Shown: positions 29,643 to 41,825 of the stretch, in pieces | How the letters are laid out: each line of letters starts with the position of its first letter | Position numbering within the stretch: the stretch's first letter is position 1 | NCBI GenBank assembly: GCA_009691525.1 | Contig: SICG01000007.1 | Location: forward strand, 1 to 48,243 | Origin: Candidatus Latescibacterota bacterium | Lineage (GTDB): Bacteria > Latescibacterota > UBA2968 > UBA8231 | Direction of reading: 5' to 3' | Length of the DNA stretch: 48,243 nucleotides | Notes under the pieces: generated by a model | The model's input: only the letters and a program-made list of their open reading frames with translations | What the model was told of the DNA's origin: nothing | The model's database searches: none | Program-made: the position numbers and the translations under genes

Positions 29643-30707
29643 ATGAGCGTATTCGATAAAGTGCGTCTGACCCAGCTGGCCAAACGGGCCGGTTGTGCTG
29701 CCAAACAGCCCCCCGGCTATCTGCTGCCCCTGTTGAAAAGTCTGCCGGTCATCACCGATCCCAGGGTGCTGGTGGGCAGCGCCACCGCCGACGACGCGGC
29801 GGTGTACCAACTCAGCGACGAACTGGCGCTGGTGCTGACCACGGATTTCTTCACCCCCATCGTCGACAATCCCTACGACTTTGGGGCGGTGGCAGCGGCC
29901 AACGCGCTGAGCGATGTGTACGCCATGGGCGGCAAACCGCTCACCGCCCTGAGCATCGTCGGTTTCCCGGATGCGGCGCTGCCCCCCGAGGTGTTAGTGG
30001 AGATTCTCCGGGGTGCCACCGACAAGGCAGCTGAGGCGGGCATCGCCATTGTCGGCGGCCATACCATCAAATCCGAGGAACCGATCTTCGGCCTGGCGGT
30101 GGTCGGCACCATCCATCCCGAGCGGGTGTTGTCTAATGACCGGGCTCAGCCAGGCGATCTGCTCATCCTCACCAAACCGCTGGGCCTGGGCATCATCACC
30201 ACCGCCGCCAAAAACGGGGAGGACCGGCTGGGGGCCATCGCCGAGGCGCTGAAAATCATGACCACCCTCAACCGGGCTGCCGCCGAGGTTATTTGCCAGT
30301 TTGATACCCACGCCCTGACCGATGTCACGGGTTTCGGGCTCCTGGGGCATTTGCGCAATATGGTGGCGGCCAGCAAGGTGAGTGCCTCCATCTATTTTGA
30401 GCGAGTGCCAGTGCTGGACGCTGCCCGCGTTTATGTGAAGGAGGGCGGGGCCCCAGGGGGCACCTACGCCAACCACCGTTTCCTGGCCGACTGGGTCAGC
30501 TATGCCCCGGACCTGGATCAGGACGAAGAGCTGCTGCTCTGCGATGCCCAGACCTCGGGTGGGTTGCTGGCTGCGGTGTCGGCTGCTCAGGCTGAAGGAG
30601 CGGTGAAGGCCCTGCACGAGGCGGGGGTTGCCCACGCGGCGGTGATCGGCAGTATCAGCGACGATCCGCCGGGCCGGATCTCGGTGGTGCGCCGGGGAGA
30701 TCCCTAG
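29643..30707 (+). CDS. selD: Selenide, water dikinase
   Basis: LTQLAKRAGCAAKQPPGYL (catalytic Cys region), DDAAVYQLSDELALVLTTDFFTPIVDNPYDFGAVAAANALSDVYAMGGKPLTAL, TDVTGFGLLGHL, DAQTSGGLL. Confidence 0.96.
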   Translation: MSVFDKVRLTQLAKRAGCAAKQPPGYLLPLLKSLPVITDPRVLVGSATADDAAVYQLSDELALVLTTDFFTPIVDNPYDFGAVAAANALSDVYAMGGKPLTALSIVGFPDAALPPEVLVEILRGATDKAAEAGIAIVGGHTIKSEEPIFGLAVVGTIHPERVLSNDRAQPGDLLILTKPLGLGIITTAAKNGEDRLGAIAEALKIMTTLNRAAAEVICQFDTHALTDVTGFGLLGHLRNMVAASKVSASIYFERVPVLDAARVYVKEGGAPGGTYANHRFLADWVSYAPDLDQDEELLLCDAQTSGGLLAAVSAAQAEGAVKALHEAGVAHAAVIGSISDDPPGRISVVRRGDP

Positions 30708-30717
30708 GGATTCTGCC

Positions 30718-30743
30718 GTGTCGGGGAGCGACCTGCTCCGGCC
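30718..30743 (+). repeat. REP-like 26-nt repeat, copy 1
   Basis: GTGTCGGGGAGCGACCTGCTCCGGCC; 21/26 identical to the reverse complement of 41800-41825; contains GGAGC-GACCT-GCTCC. Confidence 0.55.
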
Positions 30744-30917
30744 TTCCCCCAGGCGCGTCCTTGCTCACTTCGCTGGATTGTGTTTTCCTGGGGCGAGGTC
30801 CGCGGGGTGCCCGCTGCAGGCGTCTCTGCAGTCCCGGATCCGCGACACCATATAGATGGTGTCGCGCCCATCTCATCCCCTCCGCCCCCGCCACGCCCCA
30901 TACGTCGGGGCGTGGCG
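30725..30917. other. Six-hairpin array between selD and PhyH2 (candidate structured RNA, composite palindromic element or bidirectional terminator)
   Basis: Stems read directly: 30725-30729/30735-30739; 30747-30753/30787-30793; 30802-30806/30810-30814; 30814-30819/30826-30831; 30841-30851/30856-30866; 30889-30899/30907-30917. No recognisable protein in any frame. Confidence 0.65.
30841..30866. repeat. Covarying hairpin repeat, copy 1 (CGCGACACCAT-ATAG-ATGGTGTCGCG)
   Basis: Perfect 11-bp stem, 4-nt loop; matches copy 2 except for two compensatory pairs. Confidence 0.85.
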
Positions 30918-31032
30918 TCCCCTCGCTCCTTAAACTACGCTTCCCTACCCCACAACCCGGCGATCCTGCCCCCGGCCTCTCCCCCAGAGACTTCCTCCGG
31001 GGCACTCCTTCGGCCCTGGCCGGTTTCCGGGG

Positions 31033-31887
31033 TCATCTCCCCGCCGCTGGCTGCGGCCACAGGGCGGGAGGCAACCCTTCCTGGGTGTGGGGAGCGCGGT
31101 TGAGGGCGTTCACGGGCCAGCACTGGCCGCCCTGGAAATGGTACTCTTTTTCCAGGCCGCAGAGCCAGGTGAAGAGTTCGGCAGCGGCGATGCCATCCAT
31201 GAACTGCTCGAAAGGCGGGCGGCCGGCGCTGAGGCGAATCCACGAAAAATCGAAGGTCGGGTCAGCCAGCCAGTCGCGGCAGGGCGGTGCGGTGCGGCAG
31301 TAGTTGTATTTGAGCAGATTGCGCACCCCGGACCCGGTACTCTTGCTGCGGCGGTGCCAGATCGAGTACACGGTGAGGAAGATGGACCCGGCTGGCGCTG
31401 CGGTACGCACGGCGTGGCGGATGTGGTCGTAATGGGTCATGTAGTTGGCTTTGCTGCGCACGAAATGAGAGCCGGGGACCACCTCGGTGGGCCCCATCTC
31501 CTCGGGGGTGTCGGTGGGATAGTAGAAGACCTGTAGGTAGTCGAGGCGGCGGTGGTACACAGAGCCGCCGTCGCGGTGCCAGTTCTGGGCCGGGGCCGGG
31601 CAAGTGTTGCGGTGGTTGGCCATCATGCCCGGCAGGCGGAAGTGGGCCCCCAGCAGGGAGCGCACGGCCCCGCCGGCCAGGGGGTTTTTCAACACTGCCT
31701 CGACGAACCAGTCCTCGGCCAGGATCTGGTCCGGCTGCGGGCCGTTGCAGTGCTCCAGGAATTCCACGGTGCGCCGGTTGATCACCTCGGGCACCACGCC
31801 CGGCAGAACCAGGTACCCGTCGCGGCAGAAGTCCAGCACCTGCTGGTCGTTCAGAGTGGGGGGACAGTCGTGGGTGGCCGGCAGCAT
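31033..31887 (-). CDS. Phytanoyl-CoA dioxygenase (PhyH) family protein, copy 2
   Basis: LDFCRDGYLVLPGVVPEVINRR; HRDGGS Fe-binding HxD motif; MGPTEVVPGSHF; IWHRRSKSTGSGVRNLLKYNY. Confidence 0.93.
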   Translation of the reverse strand: MLPATHDCPPTLNDQQVLDFCRDGYLVLPGVVPEVINRRTVEFLEHCNGPQPDQILAEDWFVEAVLKNPLAGGAVRSLLGAHFRLPGMMANHRNTCPAPAQNWHRDGGSVYHRRLDYLQVFYYPTDTPEEMGPTEVVPGSHFVRSKANYMTHYDHIRHAVRTAAPAGSIFLTVYSIWHRRSKSTGSGVRNLLKYNYCRTAPPCRDWLADPTFDFSWIRLSAGRPPFEQFMDGIAAAELFTWLCGLEKEYHFQGGQCWPVNALNRAPHTQEGLPPALWPQPAAGR

Positions 31888-31891
31888 GGCA

Positions 31892-31918
31892 TTACCTCTC
31901 TAGGATAAACTCACAGCC
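31892..31918 (-). pseudogene. Nine-codon C-terminal remnant (GCEFILER-stop) of a third copy of the small protein encoded by A and B
   Basis: GGC TGT GAG TTT ATC CTA GAG AGG TAA aligns with GCEFILEKWT-stop (B) and GCEFILEKWS-stop (A); same 4-nt gap from stop to downstream PhyH start as at the A/PhyH1 junction. Confidence 0.72.
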
Positions 31919-31919
31919 C

Positions 31920-31945
31920 CGCAACGCCATATAGATGGCGTTGCG
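31920..31945. repeat. Covarying hairpin repeat, copy 2 (CGCAACGCCAT-ATAG-ATGGCGTTGCG)
   Basis: Perfect 11-bp stem, same ATAG loop as copy 1; directly abuts the GCEFILER remnant. Confidence 0.85.
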
Positions 31946-31961
31946 CGCCAGCAGAATCCTC

Positions 31962-32324
31962 TCAGGTCCATTTTTCTAGGATAAATTCGCAGCCCATCCC
32001 CACGGTCTGGTCTTCCTGCAAGAGCAGGGCCAGCTCGGGGAATTTGATCACCCGCCAACCGTTGGCCATGGCCTCCAGCACGGTCTGGTACGGCCACTGG
32101 GCGGGGTCGGGCGGCAACTCCTGCATCTTGCCCTCGGCGACCAGGGAAATCCCGATTACCTGGGAGCCCACCCCAGTGTTGCTTACTTGGAGGTAGAGCA
32201 GTTGCTGGGGGGGGCGTTTGCCTGCCATCTCCAAGGCTTGCACGAGGTCGGCTTCGGCCAGTTCGCCCCGCTGGAGTTTTTCCAGGCAGGTCTGAAGGTG
32301 CAGTCGCAGCGTATCCATACTCAT
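31962..32324 (-). CDS. Small protein of unknown family (B), PhyH-associated
   Basis: MSMDTLRLHLQTCLEKLQRGELAEADLV...NTGVGSQVIGISLVAEGKMQELPPDPAQWPYQTVLEAMANGWRVIKFPELALLLQEDQTVGMGCEFILEKWT; ATG overlaps the PhyH1 stop (ATGA). Confidence 0.8.
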   Translation of the reverse strand: MSMDTLRLHLQTCLEKLQRGELAEADLVQALEMAGKRPPQQLLYLQVSNTGVGSQVIGISLVAEGKMQELPPDPAQWPYQTVLEAMANGWRVIKFPELALLLQEDQTVGMGCEFILEKWT

Positions 32325-33160
32325 CTGGTGGCCAGGGCCGGAGGAAAGCCGTAGGGCAGGTCGTTGCGCTGGGCCGGCAGGGGCCAGCTTTGGCCGCCGG
32401 TGACCTGGTAGTTGTGGTGCTGACCGGCCAGCCAGCAGAACATCTCGGCCGTCGAATAACACTCGTGGAACTGCTCACCAAAGCCGGCGGCCGGGCCGCT
32501 GAAATTGGCGCGGGCCAGATCGAAATCCGGCTCCCTGACCCAGTCGCGGGCCGGGGCCGCGGTGCGCCAGTAGCAGTACTTGAGCATGTTGCGGATACCG
32601 CTGCCAGGGGCGGCGGTGGCCCGGTGCCAGATCCGGTACGCGGTGATGAAGATGGAGCCGGCCGGGGCCGAAGTGGAGGCGCTGCCGCGGATGCGCCCGT
32701 AGTGGGCCATGGCCCGCTGGGTGTTGGGCACCAGGTGGGAGCCGGGCACCACCTCGGTGGGGCCCATCTCCAGGGGGGTTTCCTGGGGGTAGTAGAACAC
32801 CTGAAGGTCGTTCAACTGTGGACCCCAACGCGAGCCGCCGTCCACGTGCCAGCCGCCCGTCATTTGGTGGGGGCACTGGCGGCGGTGGTTGCTCATTAGC
32901 ACCGGCAGCCCAAACCCTGGACCCAGGAGCGAGCGCACCGCTCCGGCCGCTGCGGGGTTGCAGACGACCTGGTCCTGGAACCAGTCGAAGTCGAGGATCG
33001 GGGTAGGCTCGTAATGGGTGTTGGTGTCCAGGTACTCAAAGGCGCGGCGGTTGATTTCTTCGGGGACCACTCCGGCCAGCAGCAGATAACCCTGCCGGCA
33101 GAATTCGAGCACCTGGGTGTCGGTGAGGGTGGGGGGGCAGTCGCAGGTCCGGCGGGACAT
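32321..33160 (-). CDS. Phytanoyl-CoA dioxygenase (PhyH) family protein, copy 1
   Basis: LEFCRQGYLLLAGVVPEEINRR; HVDGGS; MGPTEVVPGSHLV; IWHRATAAPGSGIRNMLKYCYWRTAAPARDW. Confidence 0.93.
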   Translation of the reverse strand: MSRRTCDCPPTLTDTQVLEFCRQGYLLLAGVVPEEINRRAFEYLDTNTHYEPTPILDFDWFQDQVVCNPAAAGAVRSLLGPGFGLPVLMSNHRRQCPHQMTGGWHVDGGSRWGPQLNDLQVFYYPQETPLEMGPTEVVPGSHLVPNTQRAMAHYGRIRGSASTSAPAGSIFITAYRIWHRATAAPGSGIRNMLKYCYWRTAAPARDWVREPDFDLARANFSGPAAGFGEQFHECYSTAEMFCWLAGQHHNYQVTGGQSWPLPAQRNDLPYGFPPALATR

Positions 33161-33164
33161 GAGG

Positions 33165-33539
33165 TCAGCTCCATTTCTCTAGAATAAATTCACACCCGAG
33201 AGTTTGAGGGATGGCTTCGTGCATCAGCAGGGCCAGGTTGGGGAAGGAGACCACCCGCCAGCCGTCGGCAATGGCGGCCAGGGCTGACTGGTAGGGCCAG
33301 TCCTTGGGATCAGCTGGCGGCTCCATCATCTTTCCCCCCTCGAACTGACTCATGCCCAACACCTGGGAGCCGGGGTTGGTGTTGCGCAACTGGAGATAGA
33401 GCAGGCTCTGGAGCTGAGGCTGGGCGCTCACGATCAGGGTGCCCAGGTGCGCCAAGTCAGTTTCGCTCAGGCGCTGCTGGCGGAAGGCTTCGAGGCAGTG
33501 TTCGGCCTGCAGTTTGCAGACCTTCCAGGTGTCGCTCAT
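33165..33539 (-). CDS. Small protein of unknown family (A), PhyH-associated
   Basis: MSDTWKVCKLQAEHCLEAFRQQRLSETDLA...NTNPGSQVLGMSQFEGGKMMEPPADPKDWPYQSALAAIADGWRVVSFPNLALLMHEAIPQTLGCEFILEKWS; ATG overlaps the upstream stop (ATGA). Confidence 0.82.
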   Translation of the reverse strand: MSDTWKVCKLQAEHCLEAFRQQRLSETDLAHLGTLIVSAQPQLQSLLYLQLRNTNPGSQVLGMSQFEGGKMMEPPADPKDWPYQSALAAIADGWRVVSFPNLALLMHEAIPQTLGCEFILEKWS

Positions 33540-34987
33540 AGAAGAGACTCTCCGGTTTCCAGGGCGCTGATCTTGGCGGCCATCGCCTCGATGAGCAGTT
33601 CCAGACAGCCCGGCGCGAGGCTGGAGGGCTCTTCCTGGTACAGCCCTTTGCCATAGCTGTCTTGGGGCAGGAGGTAGGCCACCTGGAAATCGCTGGTGAG
33701 GGGTGAGAAGAGCAAGGTGTACTGGGGAAAACGCCGGCGCAGTTCGGTCTGGATCAGGCTGTAGGGCTCGCCCCCGCTGGTGGCCCAGATCGCATCCCCT
33801 AGCCGGTGGACCGTGAACTGAAAGGGATAGGTGGGACCCTTGGGCAGCCCTTCGAGGCGGGCCAGCCAGCGCCGGGCCCGCTCGGCCAGGGCGCTGCAGT
33901 TGCGCACTTCGAGGGCATCGCCCCGGGCTTCGGCCTCCCGCTGGCGGGCTGACCATTCCTGGAGTTCCTGCTGGAAACGCTCTGGGTTCAGGCCGGGTTT
34001 GAGGGGCAGGTCCACCGAATAAATCCCCCCCGCAAAACAGGTAGTCTGCGCCTGCCGCTCCGAGGTGAAGGGCACATGGGCCCAGGCCCCTAGGGTGGCC
34101 CCGGAGATCACTGGCCCCTGGTAGGTAAAATCCGTCGCCGGGGCCCCCATGCCTTCCAGCACCGCGAGGGCTGCGTGCCCCACCTGCCGGCCATTGCGGT
34201 CGGCCACCGCCGTATCGCCGACAAAACCGTCTCGCGGTCCCTGGTCGCCGCAAGCCCCCAGGGCAAAGGTGCAGGGGACACCCGTGGATTTCTCCACGGT
34301 TTCGCGCAAGGTGCCCGGATAGTCCGGGCTGATCAGTTGGTTCTCCCAGGCCAGGCTGGTGGGGTGGCAACTGTAGTTGACCATGGTGGCCAGGAGTTGC
34401 CCGGAGGGCGCACAGAAACGGGCCACCACCACGGTCTGGTCGGGCTCTCCCTGTGGGTTGAAACCGCAGACCGGGTGGCCGGCCTCCGCATCCCAGCAGT
34501 CCCGGTTGGCAGCCATGCCGCACTGGCCGGTGGCATAGGTGACCACCGCTTCCTGCATGGCGTAGAGCGCCTGGGCACCGGCTTCCTGGACCTTGAGGCG
34601 CAACAGGCGCAGATAGGGGACAATCAGTTCCCCGCCGGACAAGGCGATCCGGTTGGCGACAAAAAAACCAGAGGAGTGGGTATGGGAGTAGGTGATGATC
34701 ACCCGCTCCAGCAGCGCTCCAGTTACCTCGGCCAGGGCCTGGCGCAACTCCTCGTGCTGGCCTACGGCCAGACCGACCAGGTCCAGGTGGGCGCGGACCA
34801 GGAGCGGGCCACAATCCAGGGGTGCCAGGAGCAGCACATCGGCCCGCAGCGGACGGTGGACGCCGGCGGCCCGGTCGTGGCGGGCCGCCCCCCACATCCG
34901 GTGGTAGATGCCCACCGGCGGGGTGATGTCCGCAGAGCCCAGGCCGAAGCGCAAACGCGAAGTGGGAGTAGGGACGTGTAAGGCCAT
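33536..34987 (-). CDS. Neutral/alkaline non-lysosomal ceramidase-like protein
   Basis: FGLGSADITPPVGI, RVIITYSHTHSSGFF, MVNYSCHPTSLAWENQLISPDYPGTLRETVE, FALGACGDQGPRDGF. Confidence 0.82.
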   Translation of the reverse strand: MALHVPTPTSRLRFGLGSADITPPVGIYHRMWGAARHDRAAGVHRPLRADVLLLAPLDCGPLLVRAHLDLVGLAVGQHEELRQALAEVTGALLERVIITYSHTHSSGFFVANRIALSGGELIVPYLRLLRLKVQEAGAQALYAMQEAVVTYATGQCGMAANRDCWDAEAGHPVCGFNPQGEPDQTVVVARFCAPSGQLLATMVNYSCHPTSLAWENQLISPDYPGTLRETVEKSTGVPCTFALGACGDQGPRDGFVGDTAVADRNGRQVGHAALAVLEGMGAPATDFTYQGPVISGATLGAWAHVPFTSERQAQTTCFAGGIYSVDLPLKPGLNPERFQQELQEWSARQREAEARGDALEVRNCSALAERARRWLARLEGLPKGPTYPFQFTVHRLGDAIWATSGGEPYSLIQTELRRRFPQYTLLFSPLTSDFQVAYLLPQDSYGKGLYQEEPSSLAPGCLELLIEAMAAKISALETGESLL

Positions 34988-41799: not shown

Positions 41800-41825
41800 G
41801 GCTGCGGCGGGTCGCTCCCCGACGC
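41800..41825 (-). repeat. REP-like 26-nt repeat, copy 2
   Basis: Minus strand GCGTCGGGGAGCGACCCGCCGCAGCC; lies between convergent genes. Confidence 0.55.

Follow-up and report, generated by a model that had tools for sequence, protein, structure and literature searches.

The hairpin-rich interval between selD and PhyH

What kind of sequence occupies the hairpin-bearing non-coding stretch between the convergent genes selD and PhyH of a Latescibacterota genome? The window, i.e. the whole stretch of 48,243 nucleotides that was analysed, is contig 102 of a draft genome of 4.02 Mb, a MAG with a completeness of 84%. The selD gene (29643-30707), recognised by its AIRS domains (Pfam), converges here with a PhyH gene (31033-31887). 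All six consecutive hairpins reported in the initial annotation are legible in the sequence, and the segment 30708-30930 folds more stably than each of 200 dinucleotide shuffles on both strands (plus strand: -111.8 against -91.4 ± 4.9, z -4.2; minus strand: z -3.0). Most of this signal comes from two 11-bp hairpins located at 30841-30866 (loop ATAG) and 30889-30917 (loop ATACGTC), while the three hairpins of 5-6 bp are individually unremarkable. The first hairpin, GGAGC/GCTCC, lacks covariation as a local fold among 55 relatives, and a better pairing partner for this sequence lies at the far end of the element described below. Two modules, the first and the fifth, do recur elsewhere in the window, as had been noticed: the ATAG hairpin at 31920-31945 and the first module at 41809-41823 on the minus strand.

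The two open reading frames examined across the interval have no Pfam family match, in line with the earlier statement that no protein is recognisable. A tRNA/tmRNA search returned nothing, the Rfam 15 search yielded no match either at the gathering threshold or at E<=1, a terminator composed of a GC stem and a T-tract is absent from both strands, and a sigma-70 consensus scan found no promoter-like site.

Several features of the neighbouring genes can be added. The SelD proteins of sister genera (L151, L152, L153, L154) have an in-frame TGA where the window SelD has Cys (AGCAAK); this suggests that the position is a selenocysteine in the sister genera, with Cys in the genus of the window. The region 31033-34987 carries tandem paralogues, namely two PhyH-like genes (31033-31887; 32321-33160) together with small proteins whose C-terminus is GCEFILEKW, at 31962-32462 and near 33165, one of which was searched and has no Pfam match.

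Filled and empty sites

The unit had originally been outlined as about 200 bp (30718-30920). The run of hairpins in that outline stands but its right end does not: the true unit is 330 bp long, lies at 30718-31047 (plus strand) and reaches into the end of the PhyH gene. Its extent is given by the orthologous junction, which lacks the element in three species of the genus (L147, L148, L150). At 89% identity, the L147 alignment continues on both sides of the site, and the break is exact, with TTCTGCC[30718-31047]TGGCTGC in the window against TTCAGCC^TGGTTGC in L147. The right arm of the element supplies the stop codon TGA of the PhyH reading frame (31033-31035, minus strand), and the C-terminus reads WPQPAAGR* in the window and WPQPG* in the L147 ortholog.

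Two other copies of the own genome (L039 and L035) are each missing in four of four relatives, and at a third site, in G038 (L177), an apparent remnant of the right arm is present. The clean junction is that of selD/PhyH in one relative, L147; the other empty sites are gapped or hold remnants. No target-site duplication is found between the window and L147, and the ends of 98 compared copies show neither direct repeats nor flank identity. In the best of these alignments the insertion is precise and leaves no target-site duplication, and the element probably entered selD/PhyH recently in the window lineage.

The gene context of 53 copies, determined with a crude ORF caller, comprises 17 convergent, 10 divergent, 10 same-strand and 16 opposite arrangements, and the copies lie close to gene ends (median distance 21-26 nt). 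A bidirectional terminator or a stabiliser of mRNA 3' ends between convergent genes would agree with this proximity, with the position of the element at selD/PhyH and with convergence as the commonest single context. It is nevertheless extremely improbable, as a T-tract terminator is lacking on either strand, the relatives with the same convergent genes do without the element, and 36 of the 53 copies lie outside convergent contexts. The absence of a hairpin followed by a T-tract also upholds the earlier preference for other readings over a simple terminator.

The outer type I family

The ends of the 330-bp unit belong to an outer inverted-repeat element, called type I, which usually measures about 146 bp and exists in dozens of copies in the own genome. 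Its left arm (30718-30753, plus strand) reads GTGTCGGGGAGCGACCTGCTCCGGCCTTCCCCCAGG, with the family consensus GCGTCGGGGAGYGACCCRCTCCGGCCTTTCCC, and the right arm (31020-31047, plus strand), inverted relative to the left one, ends in GGGGTCATCTCCCCGCCGC. The compact form, GCGTCGGGGAGYGACCCRCTCCGGCCTTTCCC...GGGAAAGGCCTYCGGGGTCATCTCCCCGCCGC, was recognised in excised own-genome copies, whose ends are inverted repeats. Like a MITE, the element is short, non-coding and bounded by terminal inverted repeats.

Copy numbers in the own genome are lower bounds obtained from searches. With up to 2 mismatches, the right-arm pattern has 103 matches against 10 for the reversed-pattern control; a 325-bp stretch has at least 50 partial matches, and at least 56 type I end pairs are spaced 103-327 bp apart. 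Among the sampled loci, 105 end pairs are spaced 126-399 bp, and the pairing between arms extends for some 30 bp in compact copies. A further type I size class in the own genome has its ends about 125 bp apart (e.g. C8:21987-22112, C114:18399-18525, C141:24232-24356). At L016, L017, L020 and L099, type I copies lie within another inverted repeat, TAGTGG..CACAGG..TTCTGCC / GGCAAAATCCTTGTGG..CCACTA, which is perhaps a fourth family.

Each of the five genomes examined from the genus carries the outer family, which was not found in any of the 42 other genomes of the class. Within the genus, the core of the TACGT hairpin described below reaches 13-116 copies per genome; outside it there is a single match, in one genome. 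The named carriers of the outer family are Latescibacterota / Handelsmanbacteria MAGs. Loci of the CAMAVQ series, L044 among them, from a MAG filed under the name Gemmatimonas phototrophica MaH-09apr19-249, also carry the genus-restricted element; the organism name on that record looks wrong, and CAMAVQ010000056.1 appears to correspond to G039:C56, from the same genus as the window. No published description of the element family appeared among the papers listed by literature searches on Latescibacter, Handelsmanbacteria, double-hairpin and palindrome-associated elements, REPIN and bacterial MITEs.

Nested type II element and double-hairpin cassette

The type I arms enclose a second palindromic element, type II, at about 30787-31018 (plus strand). 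Its inner inverted repeat joins roughly 30804-30829 with 30985-31008 (GGGTGCCC...GTCTCTG / CAGAGAC...GGGGCAC). Type II occurs elsewhere without type I arms (L013, L044, L056, L096); at L010 it is enclosed by type I arms and has no hairpin cassette, which is likewise missing from the type II copies L012, L013 and others.

The cassette is made of the two 11-bp hairpins. Its first half, CGCGACACCAT-ATAG-ATGGTGTCGCG (30841-30866, plus strand), has a core with 28 exact matches in the own genome against 0 for the reversed-pattern control, and its stems vary in matched pairs. The second half, CGCCACGCCCC-ATACGTC-GGGGCGTGGCG (30889-30917, plus strand), belongs to a TACGT-loop family, whose core has 41 own-genome matches against 0 for the control. 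The hairpin pair behaves as a unit: 15 of 17 neighbouring own-genome pairs are spaced 60-63 nt, centre to centre, whereas two pairs, that of the window among them, lie closer together, at about 49. Perfect hairpins with a stem of at least 9 number 184 across 870 kb of loci, and the two loop families dominate them (loops ACGTA 62, AACGTAT 13, ATAG/CTAT 22); a simple-shuffle control has 6 in 156 kb. These counts do not give a genome-wide density, because most loci were picked for carrying the element.

A solitary hairpin of the ATAG family is located between two PhyH genes (31920-31945, plus strand) and occupies the same position in L147, L148 and L150, with a differing stem or loop in each. In L150 the stem changes are matched, CGCAACGCCAT/ATGGCGTTGCG in the window being replaced by CGCCGGGCCAT/ATGGCCCGGCG. 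On the minus strand, 31920-31945 falls within a short open frame ending in RILLARNAIYMALRGCEFILER*, and by eye this frame is open in the relatives too.

From their separate occurrences it can be inferred that type I, type II and the double hairpin are distinct mobile families which insert into one another, and such mutual insertion would account for the run of hairpins at selD/PhyH.

Arm covariation: DNA or RNA?

Pairing of the arms was evaluated in 55 compact copies, the 3' halves being reassigned among copies in 2000 shuffles. Watson-Crick cells numbered 1243 against 1146 ± 5.5 (maximum 1164), and two-sided changes 56 against 8.2 ± 2.8 (maximum 18), figures that do not translate into a strict probability because the copies share descent. 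The 13 own copies alone behave similarly, with 9 two-sided changes against 1.5.

Strong covariation together with low folding energy is what a multiplied structured ncRNA family would display, its conserved fold acting as an RNA (sRNA or 3' UTR stabiliser). On its own strand, an RNA would be expected to retain G-U states. No G-U excess is found on the plus strand in the arm or hairpin stems: one-sided states in the arms are 12 G-T against 32 A-C (57 and 76 in shuffles), and in the hairpin stems, where 659 of 679 cells are Watson-Crick, 4 G-T against 5 A-C, that is, without wobble bias. The A-C excess in the arms, equivalent to G-U on the minus strand, weakly fits a minus-strand RNA, as does the consensus folding energy, which is lower on the minus than on the plus strand; shuffled copies, however, reproduce a nearly equal strand difference in MFE (-15.7 vs -18.8 kcal/mol), which is mostly compositional. 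Two variants of the RNA reading, a minus-strand RNA and selection on RNA that avoids G-U, keep a small probability. Against a structured RNA family stand the mixed gene orientation, the missing Rfam match and promoter-like site, and the empty site in relatives. The structured ncRNA put forward in the initial annotation is accordingly not supported and is very unlikely. Taken together, the covariation without G-U excess, the mixed orientation, and the lack of both a terminator and an Rfam match point to pairing at the DNA level rather than to a structured RNA.

Search for a mobilising enzyme

No transposase-bearing copy is present among the end pairs listed in the own genome or in 870 kb of loci, all from draft assemblies. 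An apparent end pairing of 1901 bp at L021 proved to be a miscall, the copy actually measuring 194 bp. A classical MITE, descended by deletion from a DDE insertion sequence whose terminal inverted repeats it shares, would explain the size, the inverted ends, the dispersal and the nested insertions. This origin is rather unlikely in view of the missing target-site duplication across the 98 copies and the absence of a long same-ended copy among those checked; moreover, copy-specific arm covariation would be unexpected if the arms needed only to fit a transposase.

The second candidate is a Y1 (HUH) transposase of the RAYT type acting on a REP/REPIN-like element, to which inverted pairs of short palindromes, intergenic and in high copy without target duplication, would correspond. 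The own genome does contain six Y1 matches (L141-L146), but all are situated at contig ends and are fragments of apparently one ordinary IS200-like element; they read as a multi-copy element that breaks the assembly. The end hairpins of this element do not match the mobile palindrome. In G038 and G039, both rich in the element, no Y1 gene was detected (drafts; genomes 84-97% complete), and around the Y1 genes of G036/G037 element modules are nearby at only 1 of 11 loci. IS200/Y1 was rejected as the mobiliser on the grounds of the differing end hairpins and the two carrier genomes without a detectable Y1 gene, and mobilisation by a RAYT has accordingly little probability.

Relationship to known palindromic elements

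Prokaryotic MITEs, exemplified by QMITE2 of Coxiella, resemble the present element in being short, non-coding, dispersed and intergenic, with inverted ends and the ability to fold into one long stem (PMC10969869). The filled and empty orthologous sites add the mobility expected of a MITE. The element differs from this group in (i) a GC-rich instead of AT-rich composition; (ii) the absence of target-site duplication; (iii) the lack of any parent insertion sequence among the sequences searched; (iv) copy-specific arm covariation and the nesting of three families.

REP, BIME and REPIN sequences with their RAYT are likewise intergenic palindromic repeats of high copy, arranged in composite mosaics and inverted doublets (PMC2817692). 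The modules described here are longer and nested, and no head of the GTAG/GTGG type was recognised by eye in the type I arms or the hairpin modules of the copies that were aligned. A RAYT (Y1) gene flanked by two repeats was not found in the genomes (84-97% complete). Strict REP/BIME membership fails because a transposase-bearing copy was not found and Y1 was not detected in two element-rich genomes. Of the initial proposal of a composite palindromic, BIME-like element, the composite part holds, given the nested dispersed modules and the orthologous site empty in three relatives, while BIME is appropriate by analogy only.

PATEs of haloarchaea are non-autonomous IS200-IS605 derivatives with palindromic ends, no target duplication and no coding capacity. 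The last three features are shared by the element, whereas the end hairpins of the own-genome IS200 differ from it and no matching transposase was found (for the term PATE in haloarchaea, see PMC3119063). The mitochondrial double-hairpin and repetitive hairpin-forming elements are also short, GC-rich hairpins, single or paired, that spread intergenically (PMC2800124). In the sponge elements of that group the stems are conserved and the loops variable; here, in contrast, the loops are conserved and the stems vary in matched pairs, the carrier is a bacterial chromosome, and additional inverted-repeat families surround the hairpins.

Interpretation and proposed mechanism

The sequence at 30718-31047 is most probably a non-autonomous nested palindromic mobile DNA element, inserted between selD and PhyH in the lineage of the window. 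It is dispersed in many copies, limited to one genus among the genomes searched, missing from orthologous sites, equipped with paired covarying arms and devoid of recognised coding capacity. The set of elements is best classed as a variant of mobile palindromic repeats, rather than as BIME or ncRNA, and can be described as MITE-like mobile palindromes that would be moved in trans by some enzyme or by a replication-linked process. The element might move as folded single-stranded or cruciform DNA, with an enzyme acting in trans, of host or element origin, which would recognise the hairpin shape and the conserved loops; replication-linked template switching would be an alternative route. The arms could stay complementary through mutual templating (arm-to-arm correction), or through mobility confined to well-paired copies. 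A broader class of bacterial selfish hairpins, spreading by single-stranded or replication-linked copying without a dedicated transposase, with arms that rewrite each other, matched stem drift, fixed loops and mutual invasion, is a speculative and rather doubtful extension.

Copy-specific covariation, usually taken as proof of a functional RNA, is found here in a mobile element. Mobility, the lack of a consistent orientation and the lack of G-U excess make the family a natural test of the copying and correction of DNA palindromes, and, owing to recent insertions between species of the genus and to a number of hairpin cores that ranges from 13 to 116 among the genomes, the mechanism is accessible to comparative study.
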